NCBI RefSeq assembly: GCF_000185805.1
Contig: NC_014926.1
Span: 1-64,000, forward strand
Origin: Thermovibrio ammonificans HB-1
GTDB taxonomy: Bacteria > Aquificota > Aquificia > Desulfurobacteriales > Desulfurobacteriaceae
Length of the DNA stretch: 64,000 bases
Reading direction: 5' to 3'
Shown here: positions 30,622 through 50,423 of the stretch, one piece after another
Layout of the letters: each line of letters opens with the position of its first letter
Numbering within the stretch: position 1 is the first letter of the stretch
Program-made: the position numbers and the translations under genes
Notes under the pieces: generated by a model
Database searches by the model: none
What the model saw: the letters and a program-made list of their open reading frames with translations, nothing else
Told to the model about the DNA's origin: nothing

Positions 30622-31899
30622 TTACCTCCTGTACTCAACCTCATAGACTGCACGGCCGCGGCGGTAAAAAGGGTCCTTGGTGTAGGAGCCGTCTTTCCAT
30701 TGCTGGAGGAGGGTTTCAAGGAGCTCTATTACGGCCTCTCTGCCGGCAATAGACTCCCAGCGGGCAAGCTGAACGTTAATAGTGTCAAGAACTTCTTTGT
30801 AGATGTCTTCCTTACTCTTGAGCTTGGGTTGTTTTTGTCCATTCTGCTCTTTCCTGATGGCGGCAGAGGCTTCTTGGGCCTTTAAACGCCCTATTGTGGT
30901 TTTTCCGTAAAAGAGCTCCGCTAACTCCATAATTACTTCGTCTTTTCTCTCCCAGTCTTCTGGAAGACCTGCTTTCTCGTAAGCCTCTGCGGGAACCAGC
31001 CCTTCTTCTCTAACGAGCCTTTTGGCTTCTTCAACTTTTTCCTTGAGAGATAGCTCCCCGTCGGCCTCCTCTGCTACTGCGTCAACTGCTAAAAGTTCTT
31101 CTTCCTCCTCCTGAATTAGCCTTTCGGGGTCGTCAAGAGTGGAGCGGACGGTGGGGGTGTCGGTTGGGGAATTTCTTACCTGGGTAACGGATTCCCCAAT
31201 GGTGGATTCAAGTGTTGAATTCTTACCCGGGTAATTTTTCAACAGCCAGGTTCTAACAGTAGCATCTGGAATCCTTTCTCCAAACTCTTCCGAAAGCCTT
31301 TCGGCTATCTGGCGAGAGCTCAATCCCTGCTCTTTAAGCTCCCTCGCCCTCTTTTTCATCTCCTCTTTGCGGTCCCTTATGAGGCCGGCCTGGCTCAGAA
31401 CCTTTCGCACGTAAGAAACTGTCGTTTCAAAGTCTTCGGCGAGCTTTTGCATAACGGTGTTAATCCCCTCGCTGAAGGCGTAGATAATTCCCCTCTTTTT
31501 CTCTGAGCCCGTTAGGTCTTTACCGGCCCTGCCCCTGCCTAAAACGTTGCAGATGGTCGCAACGTAGCGAATTTCGTGGCCCGGTATTCTCCAGATTTCA
31601 GCCGGAACTTTCACGCCGGCCTTAAGGTGGGCAAAATAGCGGTGGTTTCCGTCAACCAAAAGGAGCTTGCCTTCCTTTTTGGTGACTATCAGCGGCGGGA
31701 ACTGGTCGCCCTTGAGGAGGTCTTCCTTATACATCTCAACCCTGTCGGTATCGGTAGAGGAGCGGGGGTAGATTCCCTGGTCAACCACAATTTCTGCTGG
31801 GTCAACGAGGGCTACATCTTCAAACTCACAGCCAAGCTCCTTTAACCTTCTAAAAAGCTTTGGGTTGTAGTTCTTCAGCAATAACTTTTCGTTAACCAT
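30622..31899 (-). CDS. ParB-like (ParB/sulfiredoxin N domain) DNA-binding protein
   Basis: 425 residues. The N-terminal ParB-like domain (about 30-115) shows IYPRSSTDTDRVEMYKEDL, FPPLIVTKKEGKLLLVDGNHRYFAHLKAG, with GNHR at the nuclease/CTPase-box position. Central HTH segments follow (VMQKLAEDFETTVSYVRKVLSQAGL and LSSRQIAERLSEEFG), then a Glu-rich tail. It is first in the leftward transposase operon (4 bp to the transposase), with AGGAGG before ATG 31899. Two palindromes TTACCTGGGTAA and TTACCCGGGTAA lie inside its coding sequence and may be its own binding sites. No ParA is nearby. Confidence 0.8.
   Translation of the reverse strand: MVNEKLLLKNYNPKLFRRLKELGCEFEDVALVDPAEIVVDQGIYPRSSTDTDRVEMYKEDLLKGDQFPPLIVTKKEGKLLLVDGNHRYFAHLKAGVKVPAEIWRIPGHEIRYVATICNVLGRGRAGKDLTGSEKKRGIIYAFSEGINTVMQKLAEDFETTVSYVRKVLSQAGLIRDRKEEMKKRARELKEQGLSSRQIAERLSEEFGERIPDATVRTWLLKNYPGKNSTLESTIGESVTQVRNSPTDTPTVRSTLDDPERLIQEEEEELLAVDAVAEEADGELSLKEKVEEAKRLVREEGLVPAEAYEKAGLPEDWERKDEVIMELAELFYGKTTIGRLKAQEASAAIRKEQNGQKQPKLKSKEDIYKEVLDTINVQLARWESIAGREAVIELLETLLQQWKDGSYTKDPFYRRGRAVYEVEYRR
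31166..31244. promoter_or_regulatory. paired palindromic sites inside the parB-like gene
   Basis: Site 1: GGGGAAT (31166-31172), TTACCTGGGTAA (31176-31187), ATTCCCC (31191-31197). Site 2: TGTTGAA (31213-31219), TTACCCGGGTAA (31223-31234), TTCAACA (31238-31244). Both are symmetric over more than 30 bp. Their centres are 47 bp apart, the same distance as the pair at 50365-50423. Confidence 0.85.
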
Positions 31900-31970
31900 T
31901 GTTAAGCCTCCTGGTGATAAGATTTAAAAAGGCTGGAGCGGGGGAAATAAACCAATGATGGGGGACTGCC

Positions 31971-32369
31971 ATGAATTTTCCACTTGTCCAGCTTTTACCT
32001 GCTAAGGAGCAAGAGCTAAAAGCTTTTAGACTTGCCGTAGAGAAGTTTTGTGAAACGTTCACCAAGCACTTAATGGAAACCCAGAGGTATACAGGTGAAC
32101 TGGAGGTAGTTTCTCTTTTAAGCAATTTGAAGGAAAAGGCTTCTTTTACGGCAGAAGTGGAAAAACTTGAGGGCAAAACGCCTGCTCTCAAACTTAAAAT
32201 CTCGTTTCCCGAGGAGAAGCTGGAGTATGAGACAGAGCCAATAGTGGTTCCGAGTTCCTTTGAGGGGCCCCAGCTTTTGTGGGAGGAGCTTCTTAGGTCA
32301 ATTAGAGGCTTCATTGATTTCCTCCTTGAGAACCTATGGGAGTTTTATCCGGAGAAGTGCCGAGAATAG
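31971..32369 (+). CDS. hypothetical early protein on the opposite strand
   Basis: 132 residues, Glu/Lys-rich with a normal amino-acid mix (ETFTKHLMETQRYTGELEVV). It is the better of two overlapping frames here; the antisense frame is Ser-rich and looks like a shadow. It is divergent from the parB-like gene (71-bp shared upstream region) and its 3' end overlaps the next leftward gene by 59 bp. A GGGGGA ribosome site precedes ATG 31971. The family is unknown. Confidence 0.65.
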   Translation: MNFPLVQLLPAKEQELKAFRLAVEKFCETFTKHLMETQRYTGELEVVSLLSNLKEKASFTAEVEKLEGKTPALKLKISFPEEKLEYETEPIVVPSSFEGPQLLWEELLRSIRGFIDFLLENLWEFYPEKCRE

Positions 32370-32637
32370 CTTCAAGAGCAAAGCCATCCTGAACTAAAGC
32401 TCTCAATAGGTCAGAGGCTGTTAGTAGAAGATGATTGGATACAGAATCAAGGTCCCCTCGCTCCAGCCTTTTGCATTCTTTGTATACATAAAAGATGCTC
32501 TGGAGAAACTCCATAAACCGTTCAGGAGTTATTTCTGGGTTTTCTCTGCAAAAGGCTTCTACCTGAGTGAAGATTTTCTTAGCTAACTCAAGAGACTTTT
32601 CCTGAATTTCAAGAACTCTCTCGTTTTTACTAATCAT
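32311..32637 (-). CDS. hypothetical early phage protein
   Basis: 108 residues, helical and acidic (RVLEIQEKSLELAKKIFTQVEAF). ATG 32637 follows GGGAGGGATT. It ends inside the + strand gene at 31971-32369. No recognised domain. Confidence 0.7.
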   Translation of the reverse strand: MISKNERVLEIQEKSLELAKKIFTQVEAFCRENPEITPERFMEFLQSIFYVYKECKRLERGDLDSVSNHLLLTASDLLRALVQDGFALEAILGTSPDKTPIGSQGGNQ

Positions 32638-32650
32638 CTTAATCCCTCCC

Positions 32651-33028
32651 TTACTTGTTAATCAGGTAGCTCAAGAAAAGGCTTACCGCCTGATTGATTG
32701 CGTTTACTGAACCCTCTTTTAAGAGCTCCTTAAAGTAGTCTCCAAAGCTCTTTCTCTCTCCAAGAGCTTCGGGAATGGCGTTCAGGACGGCAAAACCTTT
32801 AAGGGTTAAGACTGCCCTTCTGAAAACACCGCTGAGGGTAGGGCTTCCGCAACGGATAAAGCCCTCGTCCCTCAGCCAGATAATCAGCTCGTAGTAAATC
32901 TCCCTTTCTTCAGCTCCAGCGTCCGGGTCAAGAGTCTTGGGGTTAAGGTCTATCGGTTTAGGGAAGGCTTCGTACAGGGTCGTCAGTATCCTTAAAATTG
33001 CCTCGTTAACAAACGCCTTGTCTGCCAT
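32651..33028 (-). CDS. hypothetical early phage protein, winged-helix-like
   Basis: 125 residues. The middle part (EIYYELIIWLRDEGFIRCGSPTLSGVFRRAVLTLKGFAVLNAIPEAL) reads like a winged helix followed by a helical segment, and the C terminus is hydrophobic (INQAVSLFLSYLINK). AGGAGG precedes ATG 33028. It may bind DNA; function unknown. Confidence 0.7.
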   Translation of the reverse strand: MADKAFVNEAILRILTTLYEAFPKPIDLNPKTLDPDAGAEEREIYYELIIWLRDEGFIRCGSPTLSGVFRRAVLTLKGFAVLNAIPEALGERKSFGDYFKELLKEGSVNAINQAVSLFLSYLINK

Positions 33029-33037
33029 TTAGGCCTC

Positions 33038-33799
33038 CTAAACCCCTGCCTCTTTAGCCGCTTTCAGAGTGTCAATCAGGTCGCTTGCCTCTTTAGCTGT
33101 TAGCTCCTTTGAGGAGCTCTTTCCGTAGTTCTCTTCCATCAGCTTGTGAAGGAGCTCCCTCACCTCCTCTTTGCTTTTGTCAGGCCAGACCTCTTGAGCC
33201 AGCTTCCAGACAAGGGAGAGCTGTTTTTGAGTTATTCCTCTTTCGCTCCAGCCGTTTACGGCTGCCTCCTTCTGGGGAGCTCCCTTAACGTCTTCTTCGC
33301 TCAGCTCCTCGTAACTACACAGGCCAATTGGAAACGCCTCCCTCAGGGCCCTGTTTATGGCCCTTGTCTCAGCCATCCTTATTAAGTGGGGGCTTACCAT
33401 TCTGTTGGTGTTTTCTACGCTTGCGTCCCCAAAGGCTTCAAACCTCTTGTCGCCTTCAGTAATCACCGTGGCCTTAACGATGCAGAAGCCCTTGCCTTTC
33501 TCCACAAGCTCAACGCTTATTCCGGTTAGCTTCCCAGTTCTGTGGGCGTAGTAAAGGAGTCCTTCTCTGGTCACGTACGGGCGGTCGCCGAGAATTACGA
33601 TGTGGCCCAAATCAGGCCTCAGGCCGTATTCAGCGTAAAGAGCCTGAATTACCTGTGAAAGTTCTTCCTGAGCTTCCTGTGGAATTCCCTTGTATCCTTT
33701 CAGCCACCCCTTAATCTGATTGGGGTCAAGCCACCTCTTAGCAAGCTCCTGAGCTACCTTTATCCTCACCTGCTCAACGGTTGCAGTTTTACCCTCCAT
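33038..33799 (-). CDS. putative recombination/annealing protein of the early region
   Basis: 253 residues. The central segment (REGLLYYAHRTGKLTG, then VNTNRMVSPHLIRMAETRAINRALREAF-like sequence and a Gly/Glu-rich turn) faintly resembles Rad52-like single-strand annealing proteins (the AxTRAxxRAL helix), but I cannot confirm this. The C-terminal third is helical and Lys/Glu-rich, separated by an Ala/Gly linker. ATG 33799 overlaps the HU stop (TGATG) and has GGAGG upstream. Alternative: another kind of DNA-binding accessory protein. Confidence 0.65.
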   Translation of the reverse strand: MEGKTATVEQVRIKVAQELAKRWLDPNQIKGWLKGYKGIPQEAQEELSQVIQALYAEYGLRPDLGHIVILGDRPYVTREGLLYYAHRTGKLTGISVELVEKGKGFCIVKATVITEGDKRFEAFGDASVENTNRMVSPHLIRMAETRAINRALREAFPIGLCSYEELSEEDVKGAPQKEAAVNGWSERGITQKQLSLVWKLAQEVWPDKSKEEVRELLHKLMEENYGKSSSKELTAKEASDLIDTLKAAKEAGV

Positions 33800-34092
33800 C
33801 ACTTAACCTCCACGAACCTGATGTCTTTACTGGGTTTGAATGCAAAGACCTTTCTTGGCGGAACATTGACAACTTCTCCAGTTTTCGGGTTCCTGGCCCT
33901 CCTCGGGGAAGCTTCTTTTAGGTAAAACTTGCCGAACCCCCTTATCTTTACTTCTTCGCCCCCGAAGACTTTGAACACAATCAAATCAAGGAGTTCTTCA
34001 ACAGTTGTTTCAATGAGCTCCTTCCTAACCTGCTTACCCAGTTTCCTTGAAACCCTTTGTCTTAGTTCGTTTACGAGCTCGTATTTTGTCAT
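33799..34092 (-). CDS. HU/IHF-family DNA-bending protein
   Basis: 97 residues with the whole HU pattern: N-terminal helices (TKYELVNELRQRVSRKLGKQV), then GEEVKIRGFGKFYLKEASPRRARNPKTGEVVNVPPRKVFAFKPSK. It binds and bends DNA as a dimer. Mu transposition needs host HU and IHF, so a phage-encoded copy in the early operon may serve the transpososome. ATG 34092 follows GGAGGTGG. Confidence 0.93.
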   Translation of the reverse strand: MTKYELVNELRQRVSRKLGKQVRKELIETTVEELLDLIVFKVFGGEEVKIRGFGKFYLKEASPRRARNPKTGEVVNVPPRKVFAFKPSKDIRFVEVK

Positions 34093-34104
34093 GAGCCACC
34101 TCCG

Positions 34105-34323
34105 TTAATTAAGGTCTAAAGCCTTTACGCTGATGAGATTTTTCTGCCCCTTGTTCAAAAGGGCAAACGCTTCAAGCCACCCCTGAGCTACGGCTTCAGA
34201 CTCAAAGGAAACCGTAAGCGGGGTGTTGTCGCCCCGGTAGTGGAAGACGACAAGACGACCGCTCCTTTCAATGTGTTTTACGTTGTCAAGATTGATGAGC
34301 ACTCCGTTAAGCTCCAGCCACAT
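34105..34323 (-). CDS. small hypothetical early protein
   Basis: 72 residues (MWLELNGVLINLDNVKHIER onward), beta-rich and then helical, resembling small PH-like or YopT-type phage proteins only in size. ATG 34323 is chosen for its AAGGAGG site at 8 bases; the longer frame to 34431 crosses a terminator-like hairpin. The leader reads AAAAACAAACC just before the ribosome site, like the loops of the late-junction hairpins. Confidence 0.75.
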   Translation of the reverse strand: MWLELNGVLINLDNVKHIERSGRLVVFHYRGDNTPLTVSFESEAVAQGWLEAFALLNKGQKNLISVKALDLN

Positions 34324-34344
34324 AACAACCTCCTTGGTTTGTTT

Positions 34345-34374
34345 TTGAAAAAGGGGCAGGCCCGAAGGCCCGCC
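34345..34374 (-). terminator. intrinsic terminator with UUCG loop, within the early leftward unit
   Basis: On the - strand GGCGGGCC, TTCG, GGCCTGCC forms an 8-bp stem with one mismatch, followed by CCTTTTTC. A second perfect hairpin CCATCG-CGG-CGATGG (34373-34387) abuts it upstream. It lies between the 51- and 72-residue genes and would split or attenuate early transcription. Confidence 0.7.
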
Positions 34375-34433
34375 ATCGCCGCGATGGGAAGGAGGGAGAA
34401 ACGGGGGAAACTCAGCGGCTATGCCAAGCACGG

Positions 34434-34589
34434 CTAATCCTCCACCACAGTAGTCTTAATGCCAGTTAACTTTTCAAGAGCTTCAGCAAGGGCTTTTTCA
34501 AGAGTATTCCCCTCTACTTCAATCGTTAGGCCGCTTTTTTCGTCAATTACCACAGTGAACAGTTTCAATTCCTTACCGGGAACATTCAT
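34434..34589 (-). CDS. 51-residue early protein
   Basis: Small gene: MNVPGKELKLFTVVIDEKSG then LTIEVEGNTLEKALAEALEK and a short tail. ATG 34589 overlaps the upstream stop (TAATG) and has GAGGAGG 8 bases before it. The beta-beta-alpha pattern is consistent with a small folded protein. The + strand of this gene contains CCACAGTGAACAG (34550-34562), a sixth copy of the junction motif. Confidence 0.7.
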   Translation of the reverse strand: MNVPGKELKLFTVVIDEKSGLTIEVEGNTLEKALAEALEKLTGIKTTVVED

Positions 34590-34849
34590 TAGTGAACCTC
34601 CTCGGGAACCTCTTTGTAGTTCGGAGGAACTTCACTCTTGAAAAAGACGAGGTTATGCCACAGGACCCGTAGGCCAAAGGAGCTAATTTCTATTCCTAAG
34701 AGCTCCAGAAGTTTTAGGGAGAGAGACAGAAGGATTGCTCCCGACAGCAAAAGGGTAAAGCCGGGGAACAGGACTACCGCTATAAGAATGGAAATCATCA
34801 GGCTCTTCACCCGTTTAAAGGTTCCTTTTGCTGAATTCCTCTTTTCCAT
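34589..34849 (-). CDS. small membrane protein of the early region
   Basis: 86 residues with one or two hydrophobic segments at about 16-50 (SLMISILIAVVLFPGFTLLLSGAILLSLSLKLLELLG) and a charged C-terminal tail. GGGGAGAGAG precedes ATG 34849. Possibly a membrane-acting early or exclusion protein; no family recognised. Confidence 0.7.
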   Translation of the reverse strand: MEKRNSAKGTFKRVKSLMISILIAVVLFPGFTLLLSGAILLSLSLKLLELLGIEISSFGLRVLWHNLVFFKSEVPPNYKEVPEEVH

Positions 34850-34883
34850 CTCTCTCCCCTACTCTCTTGAAGTTGAAAGGGCT

Positions 34884-35069
34884 TTAAAGTGGCTTCTGGT
34901 CTTCAGTCTCTTTCCTGCTGTTCTCCCTTGGCTTCTGGCTACTAACTAAGGCACTGCAGTAGCGCTCAAGGAGCCTTTGGCACTTTTGTTCATCAAACTC
35001 CTCACAGGGCTTATCAAGCTCCCTGAGAGCCTCTTGCAGGTAGTGGTCAAAGGTGCTAAACTTTTTCAT
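34884..35069 (-). CDS. small hypothetical early protein
   Basis: 61 residues (MKKFSTFDHYLQEALREL and onward), helical with three Cys (KPCEEF, QKCQRL, RYCSAL) and a polar tail. ATG 35069 has GGAGG 5 bases upstream; the GTG two codons earlier is part of that site. No known function. Confidence 0.65.
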   Translation of the reverse strand: MKKFSTFDHYLQEALRELDKPCEEFDEQKCQRLLERYCSALVSSQKPRENSRKETEDQKPL

Positions 35070-35132
35070 AACCACCTCCGGTAAGTCGTGGAGTTTATTG
35101 AGCTTGTAAAGTTCGTTAAACCAGCCAGTCTT

Positions 35133-35435
35133 CTAACCTTCCTTGTTCTCTACTTCTGCTCTCTTTTTGCCCTTTTTCTTCTTGGGCTTATCAAGAAGCG
35201 CTACGGAGTTGACGTCAGTAGAGCCGTTGACTTCCTTAACCTTGCTGTCCTCATTGGAAGTATCTACTTCGCTTTCCTTTTCCTCCTTTACTTTGCGTGG
35301 AGCTTTGCGGACTTGCTTAAATTCTTCAAAGAGCTCAGCCGCTGACGCGACTAAAAGGGCAACGAAGTAACCGCAGGCAAAGGCCAAGGCTGACGCAGCA
35401 ATAACGATGAGGGAGAGCTCCACAAGCCTCTCCAT
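35133..35435 (-). CDS. membrane-anchored early protein with charged tail
   Basis: 100 residues. An N-terminal hydrophobic segment (LSLIVIAASALAFACGYFVALLVASAAEL, about 7-35) is followed by a Lys/Glu-rich tail. ATG 35435 overlaps the upstream stop (TAATG), which supports this strand over the overlapping + frame of 85 residues. Role unknown. Confidence 0.65.
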   Translation of the reverse strand: MERLVELSLIVIAASALAFACGYFVALLVASAAELFEEFKQVRKAPRKVKEEKESEVDTSNEDSKVKEVNGSTDVNSVALLDKPKKKKGKKRAEVENKEG

Positions 35436-35932
35436 TACTCGCCCTCCCTGTTTCCTTGAATTGCCTTCTTAACTGCAAAGACCACTTCGGCGCACTTGAT
35501 TAGGAGCTCCTCTGCTTCCTTGTGTAGCTTTTCAAGTTCCTCTTTTGTAAGCTCGTTGTCTTTAATCGCGTCGGCGTGAACCCTTAAAACGTCAGAAAAC
35601 TCTTTTGCAAGGAAAGCAATTTCCTTCTGGAGTTCTGCAGGGGAGCGAACCTCGTTGGTCTTTATGAAAACTCCACCGCACTTGCGGGCAAGCCACTGAA
35701 TAAGAATGTCGTTTCCGTATGCCCTGTTAAGCTCTGGAACCCTCGGCAGCGGCGGGTTATAATCAGGGTCTGAGTGGTATCGCCTTACTGTCTCTGTACC
35801 TATTCCCATCTCATCAGCGATTTCCGAATAAGTCCTTCCACTGACGCCTCTTGCCGTGTTTAAAACCTCCTTAACACTCATTGATTCGTAGGGAAGAACC
35901 CTCTCAACTACCTTGGCTCTTGCTCTGCTCAT
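35435..35932 (-). CDS. CII-like phage regulatory protein
   Basis: 165 residues. An HTH lies at about 30-60 (YSEIADEMGIGTETVRRYHSDPDYNPPLPRVPEL), followed by NDILIQWLARKCGGVFI and a helical oligomerisation tail, like phage CII-type regulators. I choose ATG 35932 with GGGAGGAG upstream; the frame is open to 36106, but those 58 residues include Pro/Cys-rich non-coding-looking sequence. It is divergent from the 82-residue + gene at 36050. Confidence 0.75.
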   Translation of the reverse strand: MSRARAKVVERVLPYESMSVKEVLNTARGVSGRTYSEIADEMGIGTETVRRYHSDPDYNPPLPRVPELNRAYGNDILIQWLARKCGGVFIKTNEVRSPAELQKEIAFLAKEFSDVLRVHADAIKDNELTKEELEKLHKEAEELLIKCAEVVFAVKKAIQGNREGE

Positions 35933-35986
35933 CCTATCTCCTCCCAACTTGGTTTTTTGATTGCTCAAAACAAACCTGCACAAAGA

Positions 35987-36015
35987 TTGAGGGCCTCCCC
36001 ACCCCGTTGTAGAAT
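35987..36015 (+). promoter_or_regulatory. sigma70-like promoter for the 82-residue gene
   Basis: TTGAGG (35987-35992), 17-bp spacer, TAGAAT (36010-36015), 35 bp before ATG 36050. It sits between divergent genes. The + strand just upstream also carries CAAAACAAACC, the A/C-rich string seen in the junction loops. Confidence 0.65.
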
Positions 36016-36049
36016 TGAGGCAGGGAGGAAAACAGCTTGGAGGTGGAAC

Positions 36050-36298
36050 ATGGACAAAAGGGTAAAAGCGATGGAACTTACAGTTGAAACACTGAGGCTT
36101 CTCCAAGAAGGAGGCTTACTTAAAGACCTGGTTGCCGTAGTGAAACCAAAGACTCTTTCATACGAGGAATACCAGAAAAGGTTGAGGAATAACCTGTTTT
36201 CTTTCATTTCTGCTCTCCACCAAACGGTTCTGGAATGCCTGGAAGAATCCGAAGGGGATAGGGCAACTCATTCAGGTCGCGCTTCTCAGGAGGAATAA
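36050..36298 (+). CDS. small hypothetical early protein on the opposite strand
   Basis: 82 residues (MDKRVKAMELTVETLRLLQE onward), helical. ATG 36050 has TTGGAGGTGG upstream and its own promoter. Its 3' part overlaps 95 bp of the leftward 65-residue gene in antisense. The open frame to 35957 is not used. Function unknown. Confidence 0.7.
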   Translation: MDKRVKAMELTVETLRLLQEGGLLKDLVAVVKPKTLSYEEYQKRLRNNLFSFISALHQTVLECLEESEGDRATHSGRASQEE

Positions 36299-36401
36299 CA
36301 GCCATGAGGTAGAGGGCTTCAACAGGTATTGCCACGAGGCCCCTCTTGAGGCACTCCTGCTGGAGCTCCTCAATAGTGAGCTCCGATAACTGCTTTTTCA
36401 T
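36204..36401 (-). CDS. small hypothetical early protein
   Basis: 65 residues (MKKQLSELTIEELQQECLKR onward), the kind of short regulator or adaptor seen after Cro/Ner genes. CCGGAGGTGAG precedes ATG 36401, and it overlaps the Cro/Ner-like stop by 4 bp. Overlaps the 36050 + gene. Confidence 0.65.
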   Translation of the reverse strand: MKKQLSELTIEELQQECLKRGLVAIPVEALYLMAVIPPEKRDLNELPYPLRILPGIPEPFGGEQK

Positions 36402-36637
36402 TTCTCACCTCCGGCTTGGGTATAGGGGAAAAGTTTTTCGCCAACCCTTTCCTCAATGAGGCGGGCTATACGGCGGGAAAAAACGGTTCCGTTAACAACT
36501 CCACGGAGGGTATTGGGGTTGACTTCAAGCTCCTGTGCAAGGGCCTTCAGAGTGGGGTATTTCTGGAGAATTATTCTCTTAATCCTCTTGGCCTTGTTCT
36601 TGCCGAAATATCGCCGTGTGGAGGTTTTTGCTATCAT
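36398..36637 (-). CDS. Cro/Ner-like helix-turn-helix regulator
   Basis: 79 residues with an HTH at about 23-50 (YPTLKALAQELEVNPNTLRGVVNGTVFSRRIARLIEERVG). It is the first leftward gene, opposite the CI-like repressor, the place of Cro in lambda and Ner in Mu, so it should turn down the repressor or early promoter in the lytic cycle. ATG 36637 is 5 bases after GGGGTAGAG; the longer frame to 36718 would start upstream of the promoter. Confidence 0.8.
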   Translation of the reverse strand: MIAKTSTRRYFGKNKAKRIKRIILQKYPTLKALAQELEVNPNTLRGVVNGTVFSRRIARLIEERVGEKLFPYTQAGGEK

Positions 36638-36689
36638 TATCTCTACCCCGTAGCTGGTTTGTAGCGTGTTTCGTAGTGGGCTTATGGAT

Positions 36690-36718
36690 AGTATAGGACA
36701 AAATGAGGTAGCAGTCAA
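36690..36718 (-). promoter_or_regulatory. leftward early promoter
   Basis: On the - strand TTGACT (36718-36713), a 17-bp spacer, TATACT (36695-36690): a near-consensus sigma70-like promoter 53 bp before the Cro/Ner-like ATG. It should drive the whole early/transposition unit. The palindromic operator 36741-36772 lies 22 bp upstream of its -35. Confidence 0.88.
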
Positions 36719-36740
36719 GTGGAGTAGGTGAATTTTGAGG

Positions 36741-36772
36741 TGTTGAAATCTTACCCGGGTAAAAATTCAACA
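36741..36772. promoter_or_regulatory. 32-bp symmetric operator upstream of the repressor
   Basis: TGTTGAA (36741-36747), 3 bp, TTACCCGGGTAA (36751-36762), 3 bp, TTCAACA (36766-36772), a perfect outer and inner dyad. It ends 11 bp before the repressor ATG and would cover its promoter. Same design as 31213-31244 in the parB-like gene. Confidence 0.85.
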
Positions 36773-36783
36773 GTGAGAGCTGA

Positions 36784-37452
36784 ATGAGCGTAAATGAGAG
36801 ATTAAGAAAACTCCGTGAGCATTTAGGGTTAAGTCAAAGCAAGATGGCAAAAGAGTTGGGGGTAAGTTTAAAAACTTATCAAAGATACGAACAGGTAGGA
36901 TACGACATTCCGGAAAGAGCATTGCGTCAAATTGAGGCAACATTCAACGTAAACCCCGAGTGGCTCCGCCAAGGCAAGGGGGAGATGTTCAGGCCCAAAA
37001 CAGAGGCCCAGATAATTGCAACCCCCGAATTTGTTGTAAAGCCTATTCCCCTGATAGCCGAAGGGGAGGCAGGCTTTGGCCAGTTTATCCCGAATTTAGT
37101 GGAACCAGATAAAGTCGTGTGGTTCCCGGTTCCTACAAGCCTTGCAAATCACAGGCTCTTCTTCATTAAGGTAGTTGGTAATTCTATGGAGCCTCGCATC
37201 TTTGAGGGGGACATTGTTTTGGTAGATAAAGATGCCACGGTGGGTAAGGGGGACCTGGTAGCGGCTTTACTAAAAGACGGCACCCTGGTGGTTAAACGCT
37301 ACTGGAAAAACAACGGCGATGGAACGGTAGTTCTTGAGAGCATTAACCCCTCTTATCCCCCAATAGTTGTAAGGCCGAAAGAGTTAAGGGACATAGCCCT
37401 TGTAAGGTTTATAGTTCCAAACGGTGACCTGATAGACTATAACCATAAATAA
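36784..37452 (+). CDS. CI/LexA-like phage repressor (HTH plus S24 peptidase)
   Basis: 222 residues. The HTH is at about 15-40 (LSQSKMAKELGVSLKTYQRYE). The C-terminal S24 domain has catalytic Ser134 (GNSMEP) and Lys171 (LVVKRYW); a likely self-cleavage point is Ala96-Gly97 (EGEAGFG). In this family RecA-stimulated cleavage ends lysogeny after DNA damage. This differs from Mu, whose repressor c is not a peptidase. The start is ATG 36784 directly after the operator, so it probably controls its own promoter. The lipoprotein gene follows after 16 bp. Confidence 0.92.
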   Translation: MSVNERLRKLREHLGLSQSKMAKELGVSLKTYQRYEQVGYDIPERALRQIEATFNVNPEWLRQGKGEMFRPKTEAQIIATPEFVVKPIPLIAEGEAGFGQFIPNLVEPDKVVWFPVPTSLANHRLFFIKVVGNSMEPRIFEGDIVLVDKDATVGKGDLVAALLKDGTLVVKRYWKNNGDGTVVLESINPSYPPIVVRPKELRDIALVRFIVPNGDLIDYNHK

Positions 37453-37468
37453 GTTTTATGGGGATATT

Positions 37469-42375: not shown

Positions 42376-42869
42376 TGCCAAGGCGGAGCAAAGCTACCCT
42401 TAACGACCTTATAAATAGAATTGTTTACCTCTACGAGAAGGAAAAGCTGAGCTTCAAGCAGATAGAGAGCGTTTTAAGGAGCGAGGGCTACGACATTTCA
42501 AAGTCTTCAATCCATAGAGCTTACAGAACCTACGCCGAGGCCGCTGAGGATTACAAAAAAATCTACGAGGAGACGAAGGCCCTCATAGAGACCCTCAAAG
42601 AGAACCCGGCAACCGACGTTATAGAGAGCATATCGGTTATCCTTGCCAACCGCCTCTTTAAGTTCGTTAAAGACATTAAATCAATGGACTTTGACGACCC
42701 CCACGAGCTGATTTCCTCGGTTCAGAAGTTAGCAAAGACCATCTCCGAGCTCCAGAAGGCAAGAGAGGAGAGAGAAAAGGCGGCAATGGCAATCCTTAAA
42801 AAGGGAGCCGAGGAAGGCAAAGTCGCCCCGGAAATCCTGAAGAAAATACAGGAACTCTACGGAGCTTAA
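42375..42869 (+). CDS. terminase small subunit (DUF3486, Mu gp27-like)
   Basis: 164 residues. It starts MPRRSKATLNDLINRIVYLY and has an HTH LSFKQIESVLRSEGYDISKSSIHRAY, followed by a long helical region. This is the DUF3486 pattern of Mu gp27. It recognises packaging DNA and delivers it to the large subunit, whose gene starts 2 bp after its stop. Confidence 0.85.
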   Translation: MPRRSKATLNDLINRIVYLYEKEKLSFKQIESVLRSEGYDISKSSIHRAYRTYAEAAEDYKKIYEETKALIETLKENPATDVIESISVILANRLFKFVKDIKSMDFDDPHELISSVQKLAKTISELQKAREEREKAAMAILKKGAEEGKVAPEILKKIQELYGA

Positions 42870-42870
42870 A

Positions 42871-44130: not shown

Positions 44131-44140
44131 GAGGTTAACC

Positions 44141-44449
44141 GTGGAAAAAGAGATTACTCTCCCGGTCTCTAAGCAAAAAGTGAAAGTAAAAGCCCTTACC
44201 GGGGCACAGGTGGCTCAGCTACCCTTTGACCTTGAGCTTGAGGTTAATAAAGCGGCCAAAGAGGGAAGGTTCCTTCACCCTGAACATCAGGCTCAAATCG
44301 CCAAGGTACTTGGGTTTAACCCTGAGGAACTCCACTACCTTGACATGAGGGCAGTCGTTGACGCTGTTATTGGCCTTACCCTCGTTCCGGATTTTTTAGA
44401 GAGGAGCTCCGAGCCGCCAGCTTCGTCGCAGTCTTCTCAGAGGAGCTAA
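44141..44449 (+). CDS. tail assembly chaperone, short (gpG-like) form
   Basis: 102 residues, small and helical (MEKEITLPVSKQKVKVKALTGAQ, FDLELEVNKAAKEGRFLHPE), directly upstream of the tape measure, the place of lambda G. After residue 84 a TTTTTTA slippery site (44392-44398) allows a -1 shift into a second frame that continues to 44766. The in-frame tail after the slip site (ERSSEPPASSQSSQRS) is low-complexity, as in other short forms. Confidence 0.82.
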   Translation: MEKEITLPVSKQKVKVKALTGAQVAQLPFDLELEVNKAAKEGRFLHPEHQAQIAKVLGFNPEELHYLDMRAVVDAVIGLTLVPDFLERSSEPPASSQSSQRS

Positions 44450-44766
44450 GGGATGAGTTCAACTGTGAAAAGTGCACGGAGAACCTCAAAAGAGTTAGAA
44501 ACTGCCCGAATAAGGCGGGCAGTAAGTTCTCTAAAACTATCGGAAGCCCTAAAAACGGAGTCGTCGTTAACAGGTGTCCCTTTGCCTACTTCCTTAATCC
44601 TGAAATCAGAAGGGCTTTTAGGCTCTACAACCACTATAAAGACGGCCACCTGCTTTACGGTGAGAAACTGTCAGATTGGAGCTTCAGGGACATCAGGATA
44701 GTTGAACTAATTAAGTCTTTTATAGCTGAGGCAGAGGCCGAGAGATGGAACCTAAGCTCAGAATAG
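44392..44766 (+). CDS. -1 frameshift extension of the tail chaperone (gpGT-like)
   Basis: Open frame with no good start codon, entered by a -1 slip at T TTT TTA (44392-44398). The predicted fusion (44141-44398 joined to 44398-44766) has 208 residues. The shifted part reads FFREELRAASFVAVF, then a Cys-rich zinc-like segment (FNCEKC, NCPNK, RCPFAYFL) and helical RIVELIKSFIAEAEAERWNLSSE. It overlaps the tape-measure start by 22 bp. This is the lambda G/GT arrangement; the heptamer is a textbook X-XXY-YYZ. Shown by reading frame only. Confidence 0.85.
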   Translation, partial: FFREELRAASFVAVFSEELRDEFNCEKCTENLKRVRNCPNKAGSKFSKTIGSPKNGVVVNRCPFAYFLNPEIRRAFRLYNHYKDGHLLYGEKLSDWSFRDIRIVELIKSFIAEAEAERWNLSSE

Positions 44767-47700
44767 AAATTGAGGCAGTAGATAAGGCCAGTGCGACGCT
44801 TGAAAAGGCTGCGAAGGAGCTTCAAGGGCTCTCAAAGAACCTTAAGCAGTTTTCTTCTTCCGCAACCTCTGTTGGTCTGGTTTCAAATAGTTTTCAAAAG
44901 CTGGGGAAAGAGGTTGACAGAGTTGAGAAAGAGACTACTCAAGCCTCTGGCAGGTTTCGCTCTTTATCTCTTTCGGCTAAAGAGGCTGCAAGTAAGAGTG
45001 CTGCCGCCTTTTCCGTGTTAGAAAAGCGCGTAAAGGCCCTGCAGAGCGCGGTATTCAATCTCAAAACAATAGCCGCCACGGCATTAAGTGGATTTACTTT
45101 CAGCGAAATTGTCAAGGGCGGAATAGAGTTCAATTCCCAGCTTCAAACCGCCAAGCTGGGACTGGCGGCCCTCATAACCTCTGCTTACGAGCTCAGAGAC
45201 GCTCAGGGGCAGGTTCTTTCTGGCATGGAGGCCTTTAAGGCCGCTCAGGCCGAGGCTGAGGAGCTCTACAGGAAAATTCTCTATAGAGCAATGCAGACGG
45301 CTTCAACCTCTCAGGAGCTCCTTCAGACCTTTCAGGCCATCCTTCCTTTTGCCGCCCAAATGGGCATGTCCCTTGAGCAGGTCTTAAACCTTTCCGAGGC
45401 TCTCGTTAACGCCGCAAAGGCTATAGGACTCGGTTACGGACAGGCGGCACAGGAAGGTAGAGACCTCCTCATGGGGTACGTTGACCAGAACGACCAGCTT
45501 TTGAGGGCTTTAGGGCTTAATAGGGAGCTCCTTCAAACTTGGAAGGAGCAGGGAACCTTTTACGAAAATGTAATGGGGAAATTCCGTGCTTTCGTTCAGG
45601 CCTCACAAGAGTTTGCAGATACCTGGGAGGGCGTGACCTCCTCAGTTTCAGACCTCATCTCAATGCTTGAGGGAAGCGTCTTTAAAGATACCTTCCACGT
45701 TATGAATGAAGCGCTTAAAGACGCAAGGGATTACCTCCAAGGCCTTCTGAAAGATGAGGAGAAACTGAAGTCTGTTTCAAAAGAGGTTGCCCTTAAGTTC
45801 ATACATGCCACAGAGAGCGTAATAGTTGCGGCAGACAGCCTCTATAGTTTCGGCAAAAGCATTTACGACTTTGTTAACTCTCACAAAGAGATTACGGAGT
45901 TTGGCGTTCTTGGCTACCTTCTGCTGGGTAAAAGGGGAGCTCTCCTTGGAACCGTTATAGGCGGCATAGCTGAAATAGCAGAAAAATCAAAGAGAGCCTT
46001 TCCTACAACCAGTCAGATGTTTGAAAAACAGCCTAACATACGTTCGGTTCTGGGGATATCAGGCCAACCCCCACAGCTTCCTTCCGCTCAAACCTTCAAG
46101 GCCTTTGAAGAATACAAAAGGAACCACCCGAAGAAACTCACCGACACTCCCGTGCCCTTGCCTGTTAAAACCGAAAGCACTACTGAGCTCGGAGACGCAA
46201 TTCTTAAGAAGCTACGCGAGCTGGAGCAGAGAGTAATTAGCGGGGACTTTTGGAGTAAAGGTTCTTCAAAGGAAGAGATTTCCTACTCCCCTAAAGGAGC
46301 TCCTAAAGCCGGTAAAAGTGGCCAGAAGGAACAGGGAGAGCTCCTTTCAACCTTTGAGGTTACTCAGAGTCTATTAAGCTCTCAGGCCTTTTCTCTTTTC
46401 AGCTCAAAGACGCTTGAAGAAACGCTACTTGAAAGCGTTCTAAACAAGAAGGAGCTCTTTAACTACGACTTTGGCCTTTCAAAGAGCTTTGAGAATTCTC
46501 TCTCCTTGATGCCCGATTACAGCCTTGAAAGCCTGTCTTTAGAAAGACAAACAGAAATAGAAAAAGCCTCTCAGAAGTTGCGTGAGCAGTACTTAGAGTT
46601 TGCAAAGGAGCGTAAACCTCAGGAGTGGAAGAAGCTTAAACTTTCTGAGCTCCGGGAGTGGTACGAGGAACAGAAGCGAATACTTGGAGAGAGCGAGGAG
46701 CTTCAGGAGGTCTATGAGCACAAGCGACTTGAAATAGAAAAGACGGCACACGAGCAGGAGAAAAAGCTTTACATAGAGAAGCTACGCCAAACGAGCAGCT
46801 GGAAAGCCGGGGTATTTCAGTCCCTTGATGAGTTGTCGAAGAAATGGGGAGATACAAATCAGCTCATTTACGATGCAACGACCCAAACCTTTCAGGCTTT
46901 AGAAAACAGCCTTGAAACTATCTTCTTTGACGCTATGAGGGGAAAACTTAAATCCCTTGGTGATTACGTTAACTCCTTCTTAGCTTCTGTAGAAAGTGCT
47001 ATTGCAGGCATAGCCGCTCATGGGGTAGCTTCAAGCATCGTGAAATTTGGAAAGTCCATCCTTGGCTTTACCGCCGCAGAGGGGGGCATAATTCAGGGCC
47101 ACTTCATACCCCTCAAGGCCTTCGCAAACGGCGGAGTAGTAGATAGACCAACCCTCGGACTTGTGGGAGAGGGCAAATATCCTGAAGCTATCGTCCCCCT
47201 ACTGGACAAAAAGTCTATACGGGTTGTTGTTGAAAGAGATAAAGCCTACGTGCCTCTTCCGTCAGGGCTCAGCATTCCTGCAAGTATAATCAGTACCGAG
47301 CAAAATTCAAGCTTAGGCCAATTACCGTTCATATCTTTACCTGCACAGGCTATTCAAATTCTAAAAGAGATTCAAAGTAGAAACTCTGAAAGAACGGCTT
47401 ATGTTATCGCTTCTAATTCAGAAGTCTTTGATAGAACGCTTTACTACAAGTCGGAGAAAAATAGCAGTTTGTTGCTCAAATCGCTAACGGCACAGTTAGT
47501 TTCAAACATCAAAGCCTTCGCAAACGGCGGAGTAGTAGATAGACCAACCCTCGGACTTGTGGGAGAAGGGAAATACCCTGAAGCCGTTGTTCCGCTCCCG
47601 GATGGCCGGTCAATACCAGTGAAGTTTGAAGGGAAAGGAGGGAACGGACAGGTAAACATAGAAATCGTTCTCGTTGACGACCGCTCTAAGGTTCCAGCTC

Positions 47701-47786
47701 CTCAAATAGGCAAAAAGCAAGTTATCCTCTGGGTTGCTGAAGATTACATGCAGAATGGAATACTCAGAAAAGTTATAAAAGCCTAA
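44745..47786 (+). CDS. tail tape measure protein
   Basis: 1013 residues, the longest phage gene, and sets tail length. Long coiled-coil N-terminal part (IEAVDKASATLEKAAKELQG), a hydrophobic central region (GVLGYLLLGKRGALLGTVIGGIAEI) and a C-terminal region with two copies of KAFANGGVVDRPTLGLVGEG, an element common near the ends of tape measures. The two copies come from an exact 53-bp DNA repeat. Follows the chaperone frames as in lambda (G, T, H). Confidence 0.9.
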   Translation: MEPKLRIEIEAVDKASATLEKAAKELQGLSKNLKQFSSSATSVGLVSNSFQKLGKEVDRVEKETTQASGRFRSLSLSAKEAASKSAAAFSVLEKRVKALQSAVFNLKTIAATALSGFTFSEIVKGGIEFNSQLQTAKLGLAALITSAYELRDAQGQVLSGMEAFKAAQAEAEELYRKILYRAMQTASTSQELLQTFQAILPFAAQMGMSLEQVLNLSEALVNAAKAIGLGYGQAAQEGRDLLMGYVDQNDQLLRALGLNRELLQTWKEQGTFYENVMGKFRAFVQASQEFADTWEGVTSSVSDLISMLEGSVFKDTFHVMNEALKDARDYLQGLLKDEEKLKSVSKEVALKFIHATESVIVAADSLYSFGKSIYDFVNSHKEITEFGVLGYLLLGKRGALLGTVIGGIAEIAEKSKRAFPTTSQMFEKQPNIRSVLGISGQPPQLPSAQTFKAFEEYKRNHPKKLTDTPVPLPVKTESTTELGDAILKKLRELEQRVISGDFWSKGSSKEEISYSPKGAPKAGKSGQKEQGELLSTFEVTQSLLSSQAFSLFSSKTLEETLLESVLNKKELFNYDFGLSKSFENSLSLMPDYSLESLSLERQTEIEKASQKLREQYLEFAKERKPQEWKKLKLSELREWYEEQKRILGESEELQEVYEHKRLEIEKTAHEQEKKLYIEKLRQTSSWKAGVFQSLDELSKKWGDTNQLIYDATTQTFQALENSLETIFFDAMRGKLKSLGDYVNSFLASVESAIAGIAAHGVASSIVKFGKSILGFTAAEGGIIQGHFIPLKAFANGGVVDRPTLGLVGEGKYPEAIVPLLDKKSIRVVVERDKAYVPLPSGLSIPASIISTEQNSSLGQLPFISLPAQAIQILKEIQSRNSERTAYVIASNSEVFDRTLYYKSEKNSSLLLKSLTAQLVSNIKAFANGGVVDRPTLGLVGEGKYPEAVVPLPDGRSIPVKFEGKGGNGQVNIEIVLVDDRSKVPAPQIGKKQVILWVAEDYMQNGILRKVIKA
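47118..47170 (+). repeat. 53-bp direct repeat inside the tape measure gene, copy 1
   Basis: Identical to 47514-47566, 396 bp (132 codons) apart, in frame. Both encode FANGGVVDRPTLGLVGE. Recombination between them would remove 132 residues and keep the frame; the sequence identity at third positions suggests a recent duplication. Confidence 0.9.
47514..47566 (+). repeat. 53-bp direct repeat inside the tape measure gene, copy 2
   Basis: Second copy of the repeat at 47118-47170, same frame. Confidence 0.9.
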
Positions 47787-47790
47787 TTCT

Positions 47791-47855
47791 CGCCACAGTA
47801 AACAGCCTTAACCGACGGCCTGCCGTAACCTAAAACAAACACCACGGAGGCCGGC
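47791..47855 (+). promoter_or_regulatory. late-junction element C: CGCCACAGTAAACAG plus SD-sequestering hairpin
   Basis: CGCCACAGTAAACAG (47791-47805) starts 4 bp after the tape-measure stop. A stem of about 12 bp with a bulge follows: CGACGGCCTGCCGT (47813-47826) with ACGGAGGCCGGCG (47844-47856); the loop contains TAACCTAAAACAAAC. The 3' arm holds CGGAGG, the ribosome site for GTG 47856. Confidence 0.82.
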
Positions 47856-48239
47856 GTGTCAGAACAGAGTTACCCCATAGATAAATTGAACATAAACACA
47901 GCCTTAACTGAGTATCCACCAATTCTGAAATCTGCTCTTGAAGCCCTTAGAACGAATTTTATGGGCCAGACTTTCCCTCCCAATCCCCGGCCCGGTCAAT
48001 TCTGCTACCGCATAGACGAAGATAAGTTCTACTTCTGGAACGGCATCACCTGGGTAGACTTCCAAAACTTCATAGCCGACCTTGTCAACCTTACGGCCGT
48101 AAAAGACATCTCAGATGAAGTAGCAAACGCTCTAATCATCAACATATCAACCCTTTTCTCGGCAATCCTTGACCTACAAAGCCAGCTCAGCGGACTGCGC
48201 CGCCGAGTTGAAATCCTTGAAAGCAAATTAGGAGGTTAA
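47856..48239 (+). CDS. tail fibre-region protein with C-terminal coiled coil
   Basis: 127 residues. A globular first half contains PRPGQFCYRIDEDKFYFWNGITWVDFQ, like baseplate or fibre adaptor modules; the second half ends in a coiled coil (LFSAILDLQSQLSGLRRRVEILESK). GTG 47856 is used because the ribosome site is in hairpin C. It is the first gene of the last rightward operon. Confidence 0.7.
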   Translation: MSEQSYPIDKLNINTALTEYPPILKSALEALRTNFMGQTFPPNPRPGQFCYRIDEDKFYFWNGITWVDFQNFIADLVNLTAVKDISDEVANALIINISTLFSAILDLQSQLSGLRRRVEILESKLGG

Positions 48240-48240
48240 T

Positions 48241-49149
48241 ATGGCAACCCTTGAAGAAGTCCTTGCAGCATTAAACGCAGCTGGAATGGATGCAAGAGAG
48301 GTCCTTTCTAAACTTCCAGAAATAGCCACCACAAACGGTGATGTTCCCTTTACCTTCAGCGACGGAACCCAAATTGCCCTCCCCGGCCTCCCGAAACTAA
48401 AAGCCGAAGTTGACGGGTTTATAAACGACGCAGAGGCAACGATTAAGGAGTGGTGGAACAGAACCCTCTACGTCCACCCAGACGGAGACGACAACGCGCC
48501 GGGGACGGAAGATGCGCCATTCGCAAGTCCGGCTAAAGCTCTCTCTGCTATACCTAATGGAGGCTGTGGAAGAATCTTCGTAATGGGAGACTTCACGATT
48601 GATGATGTCTCTCTTTTGTCTGCAAAGAGAGATAACATAACAGTTGTTTTTGATAGATACCCGGGATTAGACGCTAACCCAAAAATAACGCTAAATAACG
48701 TTCGCAACTTTCTGTACGGTAGCGGAAACAAACTTTGGTTCAGGTGGGTTGATACAGAAATCAATGCGTCTGGATTTACAGCCCCAATTGGTTCGCTCTT
48801 TCAATGGGCTACGCACATTTTCGCAGGAGAAGCAGGAAATTCAATGCTAAATACACTTGGTTTTTGGGGTTGTAACATCAACATAAACGTTGATAGTGAT
48901 TACTACGTTTACCTTGGTAGCTCCGAGTTTGTAATGCGTTTTTATCAAACGCAAATAAACTACAACAATTCAACAGGCAATAACCTATTTAAGCTATGTG
49001 ATGCAAGGAATACGAACATACTTCGATTTACAGATACTGTAATTACTTGCAACGGAACACAAATAACCGATTTGGCAGGTCTGATAGCAAATCTTGTTCG
49101 CGATGCAAACGGAATACCAAGAAATATTACTTCAAACTTAATTCTTTAA
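48241..49149 (+). CDS. tail fibre protein with beta-helix region
   Basis: 302 residues. N-terminal helical adaptor (1-85), then TLYVHPDGDDNAPGTEDAPFASPAKALSAI, a segment typical of pectate-lyase-like beta-helix proteins, and repeated short strands to the end. It probably forms trimeric receptor-binding fibres. Start ATG 48241, AGGAGG upstream. The second half is more AT-rich than neighbours, as often in exchangeable receptor-binding parts. Confidence 0.72.
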   Translation: MATLEEVLAALNAAGMDAREVLSKLPEIATTNGDVPFTFSDGTQIALPGLPKLKAEVDGFINDAEATIKEWWNRTLYVHPDGDDNAPGTEDAPFASPAKALSAIPNGGCGRIFVMGDFTIDDVSLLSAKRDNITVVFDRYPGLDANPKITLNNVRNFLYGSGNKLWFRWVDTEINASGFTAPIGSLFQWATHIFAGEAGNSMLNTLGFWGCNININVDSDYYVYLGSSEFVMRFYQTQINYNNSTGNNLFKLCDARNTNILRFTDTVITCNGTQITDLAGLIANLVRDANGIPRNITSNLIL

Positions 49150-49161
49150 CGGAGGTAACTA

Positions 49162-49695
49162 ATGCTTAAGCTAATCAAAATTGGAAATCTTATATACCAA
49201 AATATTGAACCAAAAACCGTTGATGAAAACGGAAATGAAATCTGGAACATTCCTCAGGATGAAACAGAGCTAAAATCCTGTTTCAAAGATACTCTTGACT
49301 GGTTCACTACAAGATACATCAATCAGAAGCTTCAAGAAATTCAGGAAGATTTGCCTGACCTTGTATCAGAAAAATCTTGGCTTGAAGGGGTATTCGCCGC
49401 CAGAGGTATTTCACCGGAAGATGTCAGGAACGCAACGGTTGCCGTCGTAATAGGACAAAAGACAGTAGACGAAGCCATCTCTGAGCTTTCCATTCCTGAA
49501 GACCTTATCCCGGACTTTAAGCGCGCTGTAGAGATAGCAAAGATAATCGCGTGGAAGGAGGCAATCTGGAAAGCTGAAGCCACGCTTGAAGAACAAGTTG
49601 ACTCAATGACCCTTGAGGAGCTCCTCCAGCTTGACGTGAAGAAACTCTGCCAAGATGCCTATGCCCAAATCCCGTTAGAGGTCAGCGGTGACTAA
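49162..49695 (+). CDS. hypothetical protein after the fibre, possible fibre chaperone
   Basis: 177 residues, soluble, helical and acidic (TELKSCFKDTLDWFTTRYINQ, ATLEEQVDSMTLEELLQLDV). GGAGG precedes ATG 49162. Position after the fibre gene is usual for fibre-assembly proteins, but I see no family signature. Confidence 0.65.
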   Translation: MLKLIKIGNLIYQNIEPKTVDENGNEIWNIPQDETELKSCFKDTLDWFTTRYINQKLQEIQEDLPDLVSEKSWLEGVFAARGISPEDVRNATVAVVIGQKTVDEAISELSIPEDLIPDFKRAVEIAKIIAWKEAIWKAEATLEEQVDSMTLEELLQLDVKKLCQDAYAQIPLEVSGD

Positions 49696-50215
49696 GGCTT
49701 ACGTCCTCGCCTCTAAGGGCATCAGTCTCACGAGCCGCCTTATCAGGTGGTGGCAGTGGGGCTTTGAATTTACTCACGTAGGGTATGTGCTGGACCTATC
49801 TGACCCTACCGACCCTACCGTCGTTGAGGCGTGGTGGAGCGGGGTTAGAGAGGGTAGGTTCTCAGGGGCTCACACCCCTGGAACAGAGTTTGCCGTTTAC
49901 TCCGTGAAGGTATCAGAGGCTCAAAAGGAACTTATTGAAATTTTCCTCCACGACCAGGTAGGAAAGCCCTACGACTGGCTGGGCATTCTCGGCTTTCCTC
50001 TGCGCAACTGGAAACTGGAAAAGAGGAATAGATGGTTTTGCTCGGAACTCGTTTTCACGGCCTTCAAGAGAGCAGGGATAGAGCTCCTCAAAAATACACA
50101 CCCAAGCGAAGTTAGCCCAAGGCTCTTTCTTAAGAGCCCGCTACTGACCTTTGAATATTCAACAAATTTGGGGGATGAACGTGAGAGGATTGGCTGTCAT
50201 TGTACTTCTACTTAG
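49688..50215 (+). CDS. YiiX-like permuted NlpC/P60 (papain-fold) protein
   Basis: 175 residues. His in FTHVGYVLDL precedes the Cys in RWFCSELVFTAFKRAG, the reversed His-then-Cys order of the YiiX/permuted NlpC family. It could cleave an amide bond in cell wall or lipid at entry or exit. GTG 49688 overlaps the previous gene by 8 bp. Confidence 0.78.
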   Translation: MTKAYVLASKGISLTSRLIRWWQWGFEFTHVGYVLDLSDPTDPTVVEAWWSGVREGRFSGAHTPGTEFAVYSVKVSEAQKELIEIFLHDQVGKPYDWLGILGFPLRNWKLEKRNRWFCSELVFTAFKRAGIELLKNTHPSEVSPRLFLKSPLLTFEYSTNLGDERERIGCHCTST

Positions 50216-50339
50216 TGTTTTCTCAACAGCTACTGCAGACTGTGTCAAAATAATTCAGCCTTTGATGCTTAAAAATATCAACGGCACTCTTGTGCCAACT
50301 TTAATAATAAAAGTTGAAAAATGTTCTAAGAAGCGTTAA
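50181..50339 (+). CDS. small secreted protein at the prophage right end
   Basis: 52 residues from GTG 50181 (GGGGGA 5 bases upstream; ATG 50175 is an alternative). A signal peptide (LAVIVLLLSVFSTATA) is followed by a short mature part with two Cys (DCVKII, KCSKKR). It overlaps the end of the YiiX-like gene by 35 bp, as nested spanin or moron genes do. No known family. Confidence 0.6.
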   Translation: MRGLAVIVLLLSVFSTATADCVKIIQPLMLKNINGTLVPTLIIKVEKCSKKR

Positions 50340-50364
50340 GACTTAACTTAAAGTGTTCAATTCC

Positions 50365-50423
50365 TTACCCGGGTAAAAATCTGAATATTTCTAACAGAGA
50401 TGGTGCATTCTTTACTCGGGTAA
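50365..50423. promoter_or_regulatory. paired palindromic sites at the prophage right end
   Basis: TTACCCGGGTAA (50365-50376) and TTACTCGGGTAA (50412-50423), centres 47 bp apart, followed by GAATTTCCCC. Read in the direction of the parB-like gene, the pair at 31244-31166 has the same order, spacing (35 bp between cores) and a matching GAAATTCCCC flank. Confidence 0.85.

Follow-up and report, generated by a model that had tools for sequence, protein, structure and literature searches.

Composite palindromes in a Mu-like prophage of Thermovibrio ammonificans as predicted binding sites of the phage's own ParB-like protein

The stretch of DNA analysed here (the window, 64,000 nucleotides; positions 1 to 64,000 of NC_014926.1, Thermovibrio ammonificans HB-1, whose coordinates are used throughout) contains a transposable, Mu-like prophage of 34.4 kb. 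Besides the DDE transposase, MuB-like ATPase, CI/Ner switch and terminal repeats that are typical of such phages, it has a CII-like protein and head and tail genes, on two divergent operons. Our subject is a set of five palindromes of the type TTACCCGGGTAA. Two of them lie inside the gene of an early protein that resembles ParB and has two helix-turn-helix motifs (HTH1 and HTH2), one lies between the early promoter and the cI repressor gene, and two lie near the right end (Table 1).

Table 1. Features of the prophage and its palindromes, in window coordinates
Feature	Position	Strand	Remarks
Mu-like (transposable) prophage	16176..50593, approximate ends		left AATAATTTTGAAAAAAAAGTG, right ...AAAAATTATACA; possible 5-bp GAATT duplication
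Left-end transposase-type repeats	16281..16326	-	two tandem 23-mers GGTGTTCCACNNNNNTTCAAAAT
MuB-like AAA ATPase	28479..29198	-	
DDE transposase, MuA-like	29212..30618	-	PHROG 310
ParB-like early protein (ParB/Noc-like domain and two HTHs), proposed binder	30622..31899	-	PHROG 1033; sites encode the linker behind HTH2
Composite palindrome beta, inside the ParB-like gene	31164..31199, core 31176-31187 (1 mismatch)		TTGGGGAAT-TTC-TTACCTGGGTAA-CGG-ATTCCCCAA; own 9-bp arms
Composite palindrome alpha, inside the ParB-like gene	31213..31244, core 31223-31234 (exact)		TGTTGAA-TTC-TTACCCGGGTAA-TTT-TTCAACA
Ner-like HTH protein, early operon gene 1	36398..36718	-	
Early promoter TTGACT-N17-TATACT	36690..36718	-	same type upstream of cI in 7 relatives
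Composite palindrome, early promoter/cI interval	36741..36772, core 36751-36762 (exact)		TGTTGAA-ATC-TTACCCGGGTAA-AAA-TTCAACA; centre 27 bp from cI start codon
CI-type repressor (XRE HTH and S24)	36784..37452	+	
Right-end alpha site	50351..50390, core 50365-50376 (exact)		9-bp arms AAGTGTTCA/TGAATATTT, two G-T pairs
Right-end beta site	50400..50436, core 50412-50423 (TTACTCGGGTAA, 1 mismatch)		right arm TTTCCCC kept, left degenerate
Right-end terminal region, transposase-type repeats	50472..50593	+	TTTTGAATTTTGATGGAACACC ... GGCGTTCCAGAATTTTTTAAAAATTATACA

All five palindromes recorded in a first-pass annotation of this DNA are present, although only three of them match TTACCCGGGTAA exactly and the other two have one mismatch each. 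The geometry that it described is also there: both pairs measure 47 bp from site to site, the two pairs are inversely oriented, and they share a GAA(A/T)TTCCCC flank. The outer arms TGTTGAA/TTCAACA match at two sites (36751 and 31223), and arms are more prominent overall than had been claimed, since the sites at 31176 and 50365 have 9-bp arms of their own (Table 1). The pair assigned to the right end (50365/50412) does lie near it, but 175-222 bp inside the end (~50593) and not at the end itself. The left prophage end is without the palindrome.

From the dinucleotides of the prophage, 0.0015 exact copies of TTACCCGGGTAA would be expected within it; the 1.76 Mb genome has four copies, three of them in the prophage. 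The fourth is in the host, at position 1199650, and consists of a core without arms, so we rejected the idea that the palindrome is the site of a host regulator. The prophage copies are longer dyads of about 32-36 bp, with the structure arm(7)-W3-core(12)-W3-arm(7) and spacers of 3 or 4 A/T-rich bases. Their arms are full at three of the five sites, wobbly at one and degenerate at one. A match of at least 6/7 in the arm and 5/6 in the core is reached in the window only by centres 31182, 31229 and 36757, while 12 Markov controls gave 0-2 matches. The palindromes are real and phage-specific.

We then considered relatives in the same class of the Aquificota (G004, G010, G024, G026(a), G037, G048, G058, G066, G100 and G112; the present genome is G000). 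A transposase search of the class found seven more Mu-like prophages with clear homologues. Further loci, in G100, G112 and G066, came from searching the whole class with the ParB-like alignment, which also gave a second locus in G026. Neither a related-locus search seeded with the transposase nor a tblastn search of this ParB against phages gave matches. The dyads turn out to have a preferred place. The highest-scoring dyad lies directly behind HTH2 (residues 187-227) in 9 of the 10 ParB-like genes, and in 6 of 10 its score is reached by none of 60 codon shuffles. The second G026 locus extends this observation beyond phages: it is a conjugative element with genes for a type IV secretion system, a VirB4/TraC-like protein, a tyrosine integrase and DnaB (names by inspection), and its ParB-like gene has a near-perfect dyad, TTTGCCGATTTTTGACACATGTCAAAAATCGGCAAA (16/17), at codon 219, the same place as in the phages.

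Outside parB, six phages have similar dyads next to cI. In G058 there are six in tandem at cI and a single one in parB, in G024 TATTCC arms are common to the cI and parB sites, and G112 combines GTGTCCGA-(TTTACCTGGTAAA core)-TCGGACAC at cI with a TTAC dyad in parB. The first-pass annotation named close relatives in which the sites were absent or not 47 bp apart as a finding that would refute its reading, and the outcome is divided. The spacing is unique to this prophage in its family, and we rejected it as a conserved trait, but the relatives do have homologous dyads of other sequence, placed in parB, next to cI or close to the ends, at spacings of 49-77 bp.

Three binders had been proposed in the first pass, namely the CI repressor, the ParB-like protein and the transposase. 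We favour the ParB-like protein, because the core appears to follow the type of its HTH1 and not the helix of CI, and because the dyads lie behind HTH2; the position inside parB is also kept across the family, the conjugative element included. A TTAC core occurs in G000, G058, G112 and G100, all of which have a ParB HTH1 helix resembling SVxYVxKVLSxAG, and the other HTH1 type goes with the cores GGACA, TTGACA, TTGCAA and TTTGAAA. The phage in G004 is instructive. Its Ner protein shares 68% identity, and its CII-like protein 74%, with the counterpart in the present phage, while its ParB is of the other type. The dyad beside its cI is GCAAAAATTGGACACTGTGTCCGAATTTTGC, and a related core is found at the homologous place inside parB. 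Since both of these cores are unlike those of the present phage, two places differ together.

The sites could also be read as operators of the CI-type repressor, the one at cI serving autoregulation and those in parB and near the right end being auxiliary operators that act through looping or as stoperators. The site at 36751 is 39 bp upstream of the early -35 box and 27 bp from the cI start, and it overlaps the likely cI promoter. G010, whose recognition helix is similar (TLRAIQRYE), has TTACCCAGGTAA at cI. However, the repressor helix does not track the core: TTAC is found in G112 with the helix ATISIAKWE, and is missing from G024, although the helix of the latter (SFRAIQEYE) is close to that of G058 (SLRAVQNWE). 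Moreover, no dyad was found at cI in G026a and G048, whose dyads, like those of G037, lie in parB and near ends. The conjugative element has its site without a Mu-like early region, and in the phage RcapMu (see below) the palindrome between c and ner differs from the one in parB. Finally, G004, G024 and G112 have a separate palindrome in the early-promoter spacer, as expected of a CI operator. Given these points, we regard CI operators as unlikely.

The sites could instead be a transposition enhancer bound by the transposase, analogous to the internal activation sequence (IAS) of Mu, with the right-end pair as accessory end sites. The parB-internal sites are 564-611 bp upstream of the transposase gene, G026a and G037 have dyads near both ends, and the arms resemble the inner unit of the end repeats (TGTNNCA; TGTCC and GTCAAAA in G048, GTGTTGCA in G026a). 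Against this, both ends of the present prophage carry repeats of the TTTTGAAAAAAAAGTGGAACACC type, a motif different from the palindromes, and the left end has no palindrome at all. In addition, G004 and G010 have another transposase type with the dyad layout unchanged, and no Mu transposase was found among the genes examined in the conjugative element. We consider an enhancer improbable, and the link between lysogeny control and transposition that the first-pass annotation suggested, as in Mu, is conjectural. In a simpler version, the palindromes would be the transposase ends themselves; we rejected this, because the repeats at both ends are of the GTGGAACACC type.

Our best hypothesis, held with moderate confidence on the basis of sequence comparison, is that the ParB-like early protein binds all five palindromes as its parS-like sites. 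The protein has a ParB N-terminal domain and HTHs (PHROG 1033, E 2.4e-8), and its profile matches Spo0J/Noc structures across the domain and HTH (E about 3e-8). At the position of the ENxxR motif, the relatives have ENLKHG and the present phage has CNVLGRG. No partner ParA was found among the early proteins scanned, the nearby AAA proteins being MuB-like and DnaC-like; we therefore use the label parS-like and do not propose a partition system.

It is important to consider the observations that weigh against this hypothesis. The dyads inside parB are individually weak in G004 (score reached by 4 of 60 shuffles), G058 (8 of 60) and G066 (25 of 60, and not behind the HTH). G037 is without the N-terminal part of ParB, but keeps its sites. 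The protein's motif is DGNHRYFA (GxHR), unlike the GxRR of CTPase ParB proteins, so that a sliding clamp is a guess, and the AlphaFold model has a predicted local distance difference test score of 42.6, which is too poor for use. A separate CI operator was not found in the present phage, so CI could own the 36751 site. Lastly, the arms differ among the sites of one phage and yet are self-complementary, which a protein of single specificity does not explain.

This last point deserves a closer description. A single phage can have several arm types (TGTTGAA and GGGGAAT in the present one, five or six in G058), and each type is self-complementary at its own site and recurs between loci of the same phage. 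Left and right arms match at 6.14 of 7 positions within a site versus 3.7 of 7 for crosses within a phage, although many dyads were found by scanning for self-complementarity, which biases this test upward. The unbiased set is the five window sites, which were picked by core alone; three of these have full arms and one has two G-T pairs. The spacers match less within a site (1.32 of 4) than in crosses (1.9-2.1). Such numbers are what one might expect if self-complementarity itself were selected, as would be the case if RNA or single-stranded DNA formed hairpins or cruciforms whose internal loops were the unpaired spacers. Apart from the bias of the scan, this explanation has to contend with spacers that are almost purely A/T, as for contacts to duplex DNA, and with GGGGAAT-type sites that are nearly identical in the divergent phages of G000 and G058, which argues for a reading of the sequence. 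On inspection, wobble-type mismatches show no preference for the sense strand, on which ground we rejected an RNA hairpin. We judge selection for self-complementarity to be very improbable overall. Nevertheless, variable self-complementary arms joined to A/T-only, non-complementary spacers are explained neither by a dimer of single specificity nor by a plain hairpin, and how such dyads are read or maintained is a real puzzle.

If the ParB-like protein is the binder, its likely use of the sites would be autoregulation together with silencing of cI and the early operon. A dimer could read the core via the canonical ParB HTH, while the second HTH or another part of the protein touches the arms. 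A sequence resembling the early promoter TTGAC(A/T)-N17-TATA(C/A)T lies upstream of cI in 8 of 8 phages examined, and the dyads of G000, G004, G024 and G112 sit between this promoter and the cI start. Occupation of the cI-proximal site would hinder cI transcription and so lower the amount of repressor once the early operon is on. Occupation of the site inside parB would damp expression of the ParB, transposase and MuB genes of the early operon in a negative feedback, either as a roadblock or by clamp loading at the site and spreading, as in KorB or Noc. The pair near the right end may serve as another loading site, through which this end and the early region would be joined. Because the site and the HTH that would read it are within about 150 bp, mosaic exchange would move both together, offering a simple route for the joint exchange of DNA-binding specificity and target.

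Parts of this arrangement have precedents. In Bacillus subtilis, the ParB protein Spo0J has a site, parS-359, inside its own gene (PMC4442127), and chromosomal ParB-parS systems thus share with the phage a ParB-family DNA-binding protein and a palindrome inside the parB gene. They differ in that the phage dyad is longer, composite, phage-specific in sequence and beside the HTH codons, has extra copies at cI and near the phage end, and comes with GxHR in place of GxRR and with no ParA seen adjacent. KorB of RK2 is a ParB-family CTP clamp and a long-range silencer of transcription (PMC11790492). It, too, is a ParB-like regulator, and its dyad operators lie both close to promoters and far from them, but the layout here is that of a transposable phage, and the mechanism is suggested by analogy. 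The operator/IAS enhancer of phage Mu, which is bound by the repressor and MuA, also places regulatory DNA at lysogeny and transposition loci; here, however, the end repeats are another motif, the repressor is of the CI/S24 type, and the sites are in parB and near the right end.

A further likeness is to B3-like and RcapMu-like phages, which have the gene order repressor, Ner, ..., HTH or ParB protein, transposase A, B, and a palindrome inside a gene that precedes transposase A. The gene order of B3 is that of the present phage, except that a DUF3102 HTH protein takes the place of the ParB-like one. Right behind the HTH, its DUF3102 gene contains the perfect palindrome CAAAACGGACAAC|GTTGTCCGTTTTG, by far the best in the 38 kb genome. 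In Fc22/U3, KP12, PhiKM and Mae-JY22, the corresponding codons likewise hold perfect palindromes, with base changes that are symmetric; in Mae-JY22 there are two further copies, 45 bp apart, in an unrelated nuclease-like gene, where they encode the same KRAAPPVL peptide. The palindromes are 26-28 bp long in the B3 group (23-28 bp with RcapMu included), and over the six genes of B3 and these phages the observed score was equalled by 1 of 360 codon shuffles (in U3). RcapMu has a true ParB-like gene two genes upstream of A, with CGGTGGGAAAACTTTTCCCACCG beside its HTH; the two best palindromes in its genome are this one and a different one between c and ner. The B3 group differs from the Aquificota phages in having a DUF3102 protein and one contiguous palindrome, in place of a two-HTH ParB and several composite dyads.

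The pattern is not uniform. JBD25 and JD18 have their palindrome at another codon, and that of phiSHP3 is weak (7 of 60 shuffles). Bise, Ps60 and PM105 have no palindrome in this gene, which weighs against the proposal. The gene order in DMS3 is c, A, B, with just two small genes between. As a separate observation, Ps60 (MH719194, about 11221; L100 5222) has GGTCAAATGTGGCGTT|GACGGCACATTTGACC inside its repressor gene. We found no description of these palindromes in the literature searched, which left most subscription journals outside its coverage.

As judged from their sequences, unrelated jumping phages have the same kind of predicted site in the gene just ahead of the transposase. A tentative generalization is a self-addressing cassette of transposable phages, in which a regulator upstream of the transposase and its own palindrome beside the HTH codons form one block, with separate ParB and DUF3102 origins. 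The block might nucleate a complex of the ParB/KorB kind, by which cI and the early operon would be silenced and the ends maybe paired, and in the Aquificota the arms would diversify under a rule of self-complementarity that no known ParB explains. Such a cassette would link ParB biology with the control of lysis, lysogeny and transposition in Mu-like phages. In B3-like and RcapMu-like phages, the gene ahead of transposase A carries no assigned role in the records consulted; as it appears to hold its own predicted binding site within its coding sequence, a function is testable in laboratory phages such as B3.

Some further observations concern the prophages and their ends. In G037 (C7: 15577-15900; 37980-38498), the repressor and the N-terminal part of ParB are lost, and the left end repeats the right end in inverted orientation as far as the palindrome pair, as though recombination had taken place at the parB and right-end sites. 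A 17-mer, TTAGGACAGGTTGGACA, is dispersed 3-8 times per locus in G058, G024, G112 and G100, and its orientation switches between the prophage halves.

In the window, a perfect 92-bp direct repeat (16084-16175 and 50486-50577) occurs nowhere else in the genome. We rejected it as attL/attR, because it is phage end sequence that is also found in G008, G015, G019 and G009. The left copy resembles the right end of an earlier prophage, and the present one would have inserted into that end; the left end in G058 has a similar remnant. Paralogous lipoprotein genes, one in the prophage after cI (37469-38533) and one outside the left end (13420-14439), are consistent with the remnant of an older related prophage.

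The right end of the prophage is about 45 bp from a tRNA-Asn gene (50593 versus 50639-50714), and at least nine Mu-like prophages of this group end about 10-110 bp from tRNA genes. The neighbouring tRNAs are Asn in G000, G019, G009 and G015, Arg in G008, Ser in G048 and G058, Leu in G026a and G037, and Trp in G024. Such tRNA-adjacent ends suggest a Tn7-like choice of target by a Mu-like transposition system.

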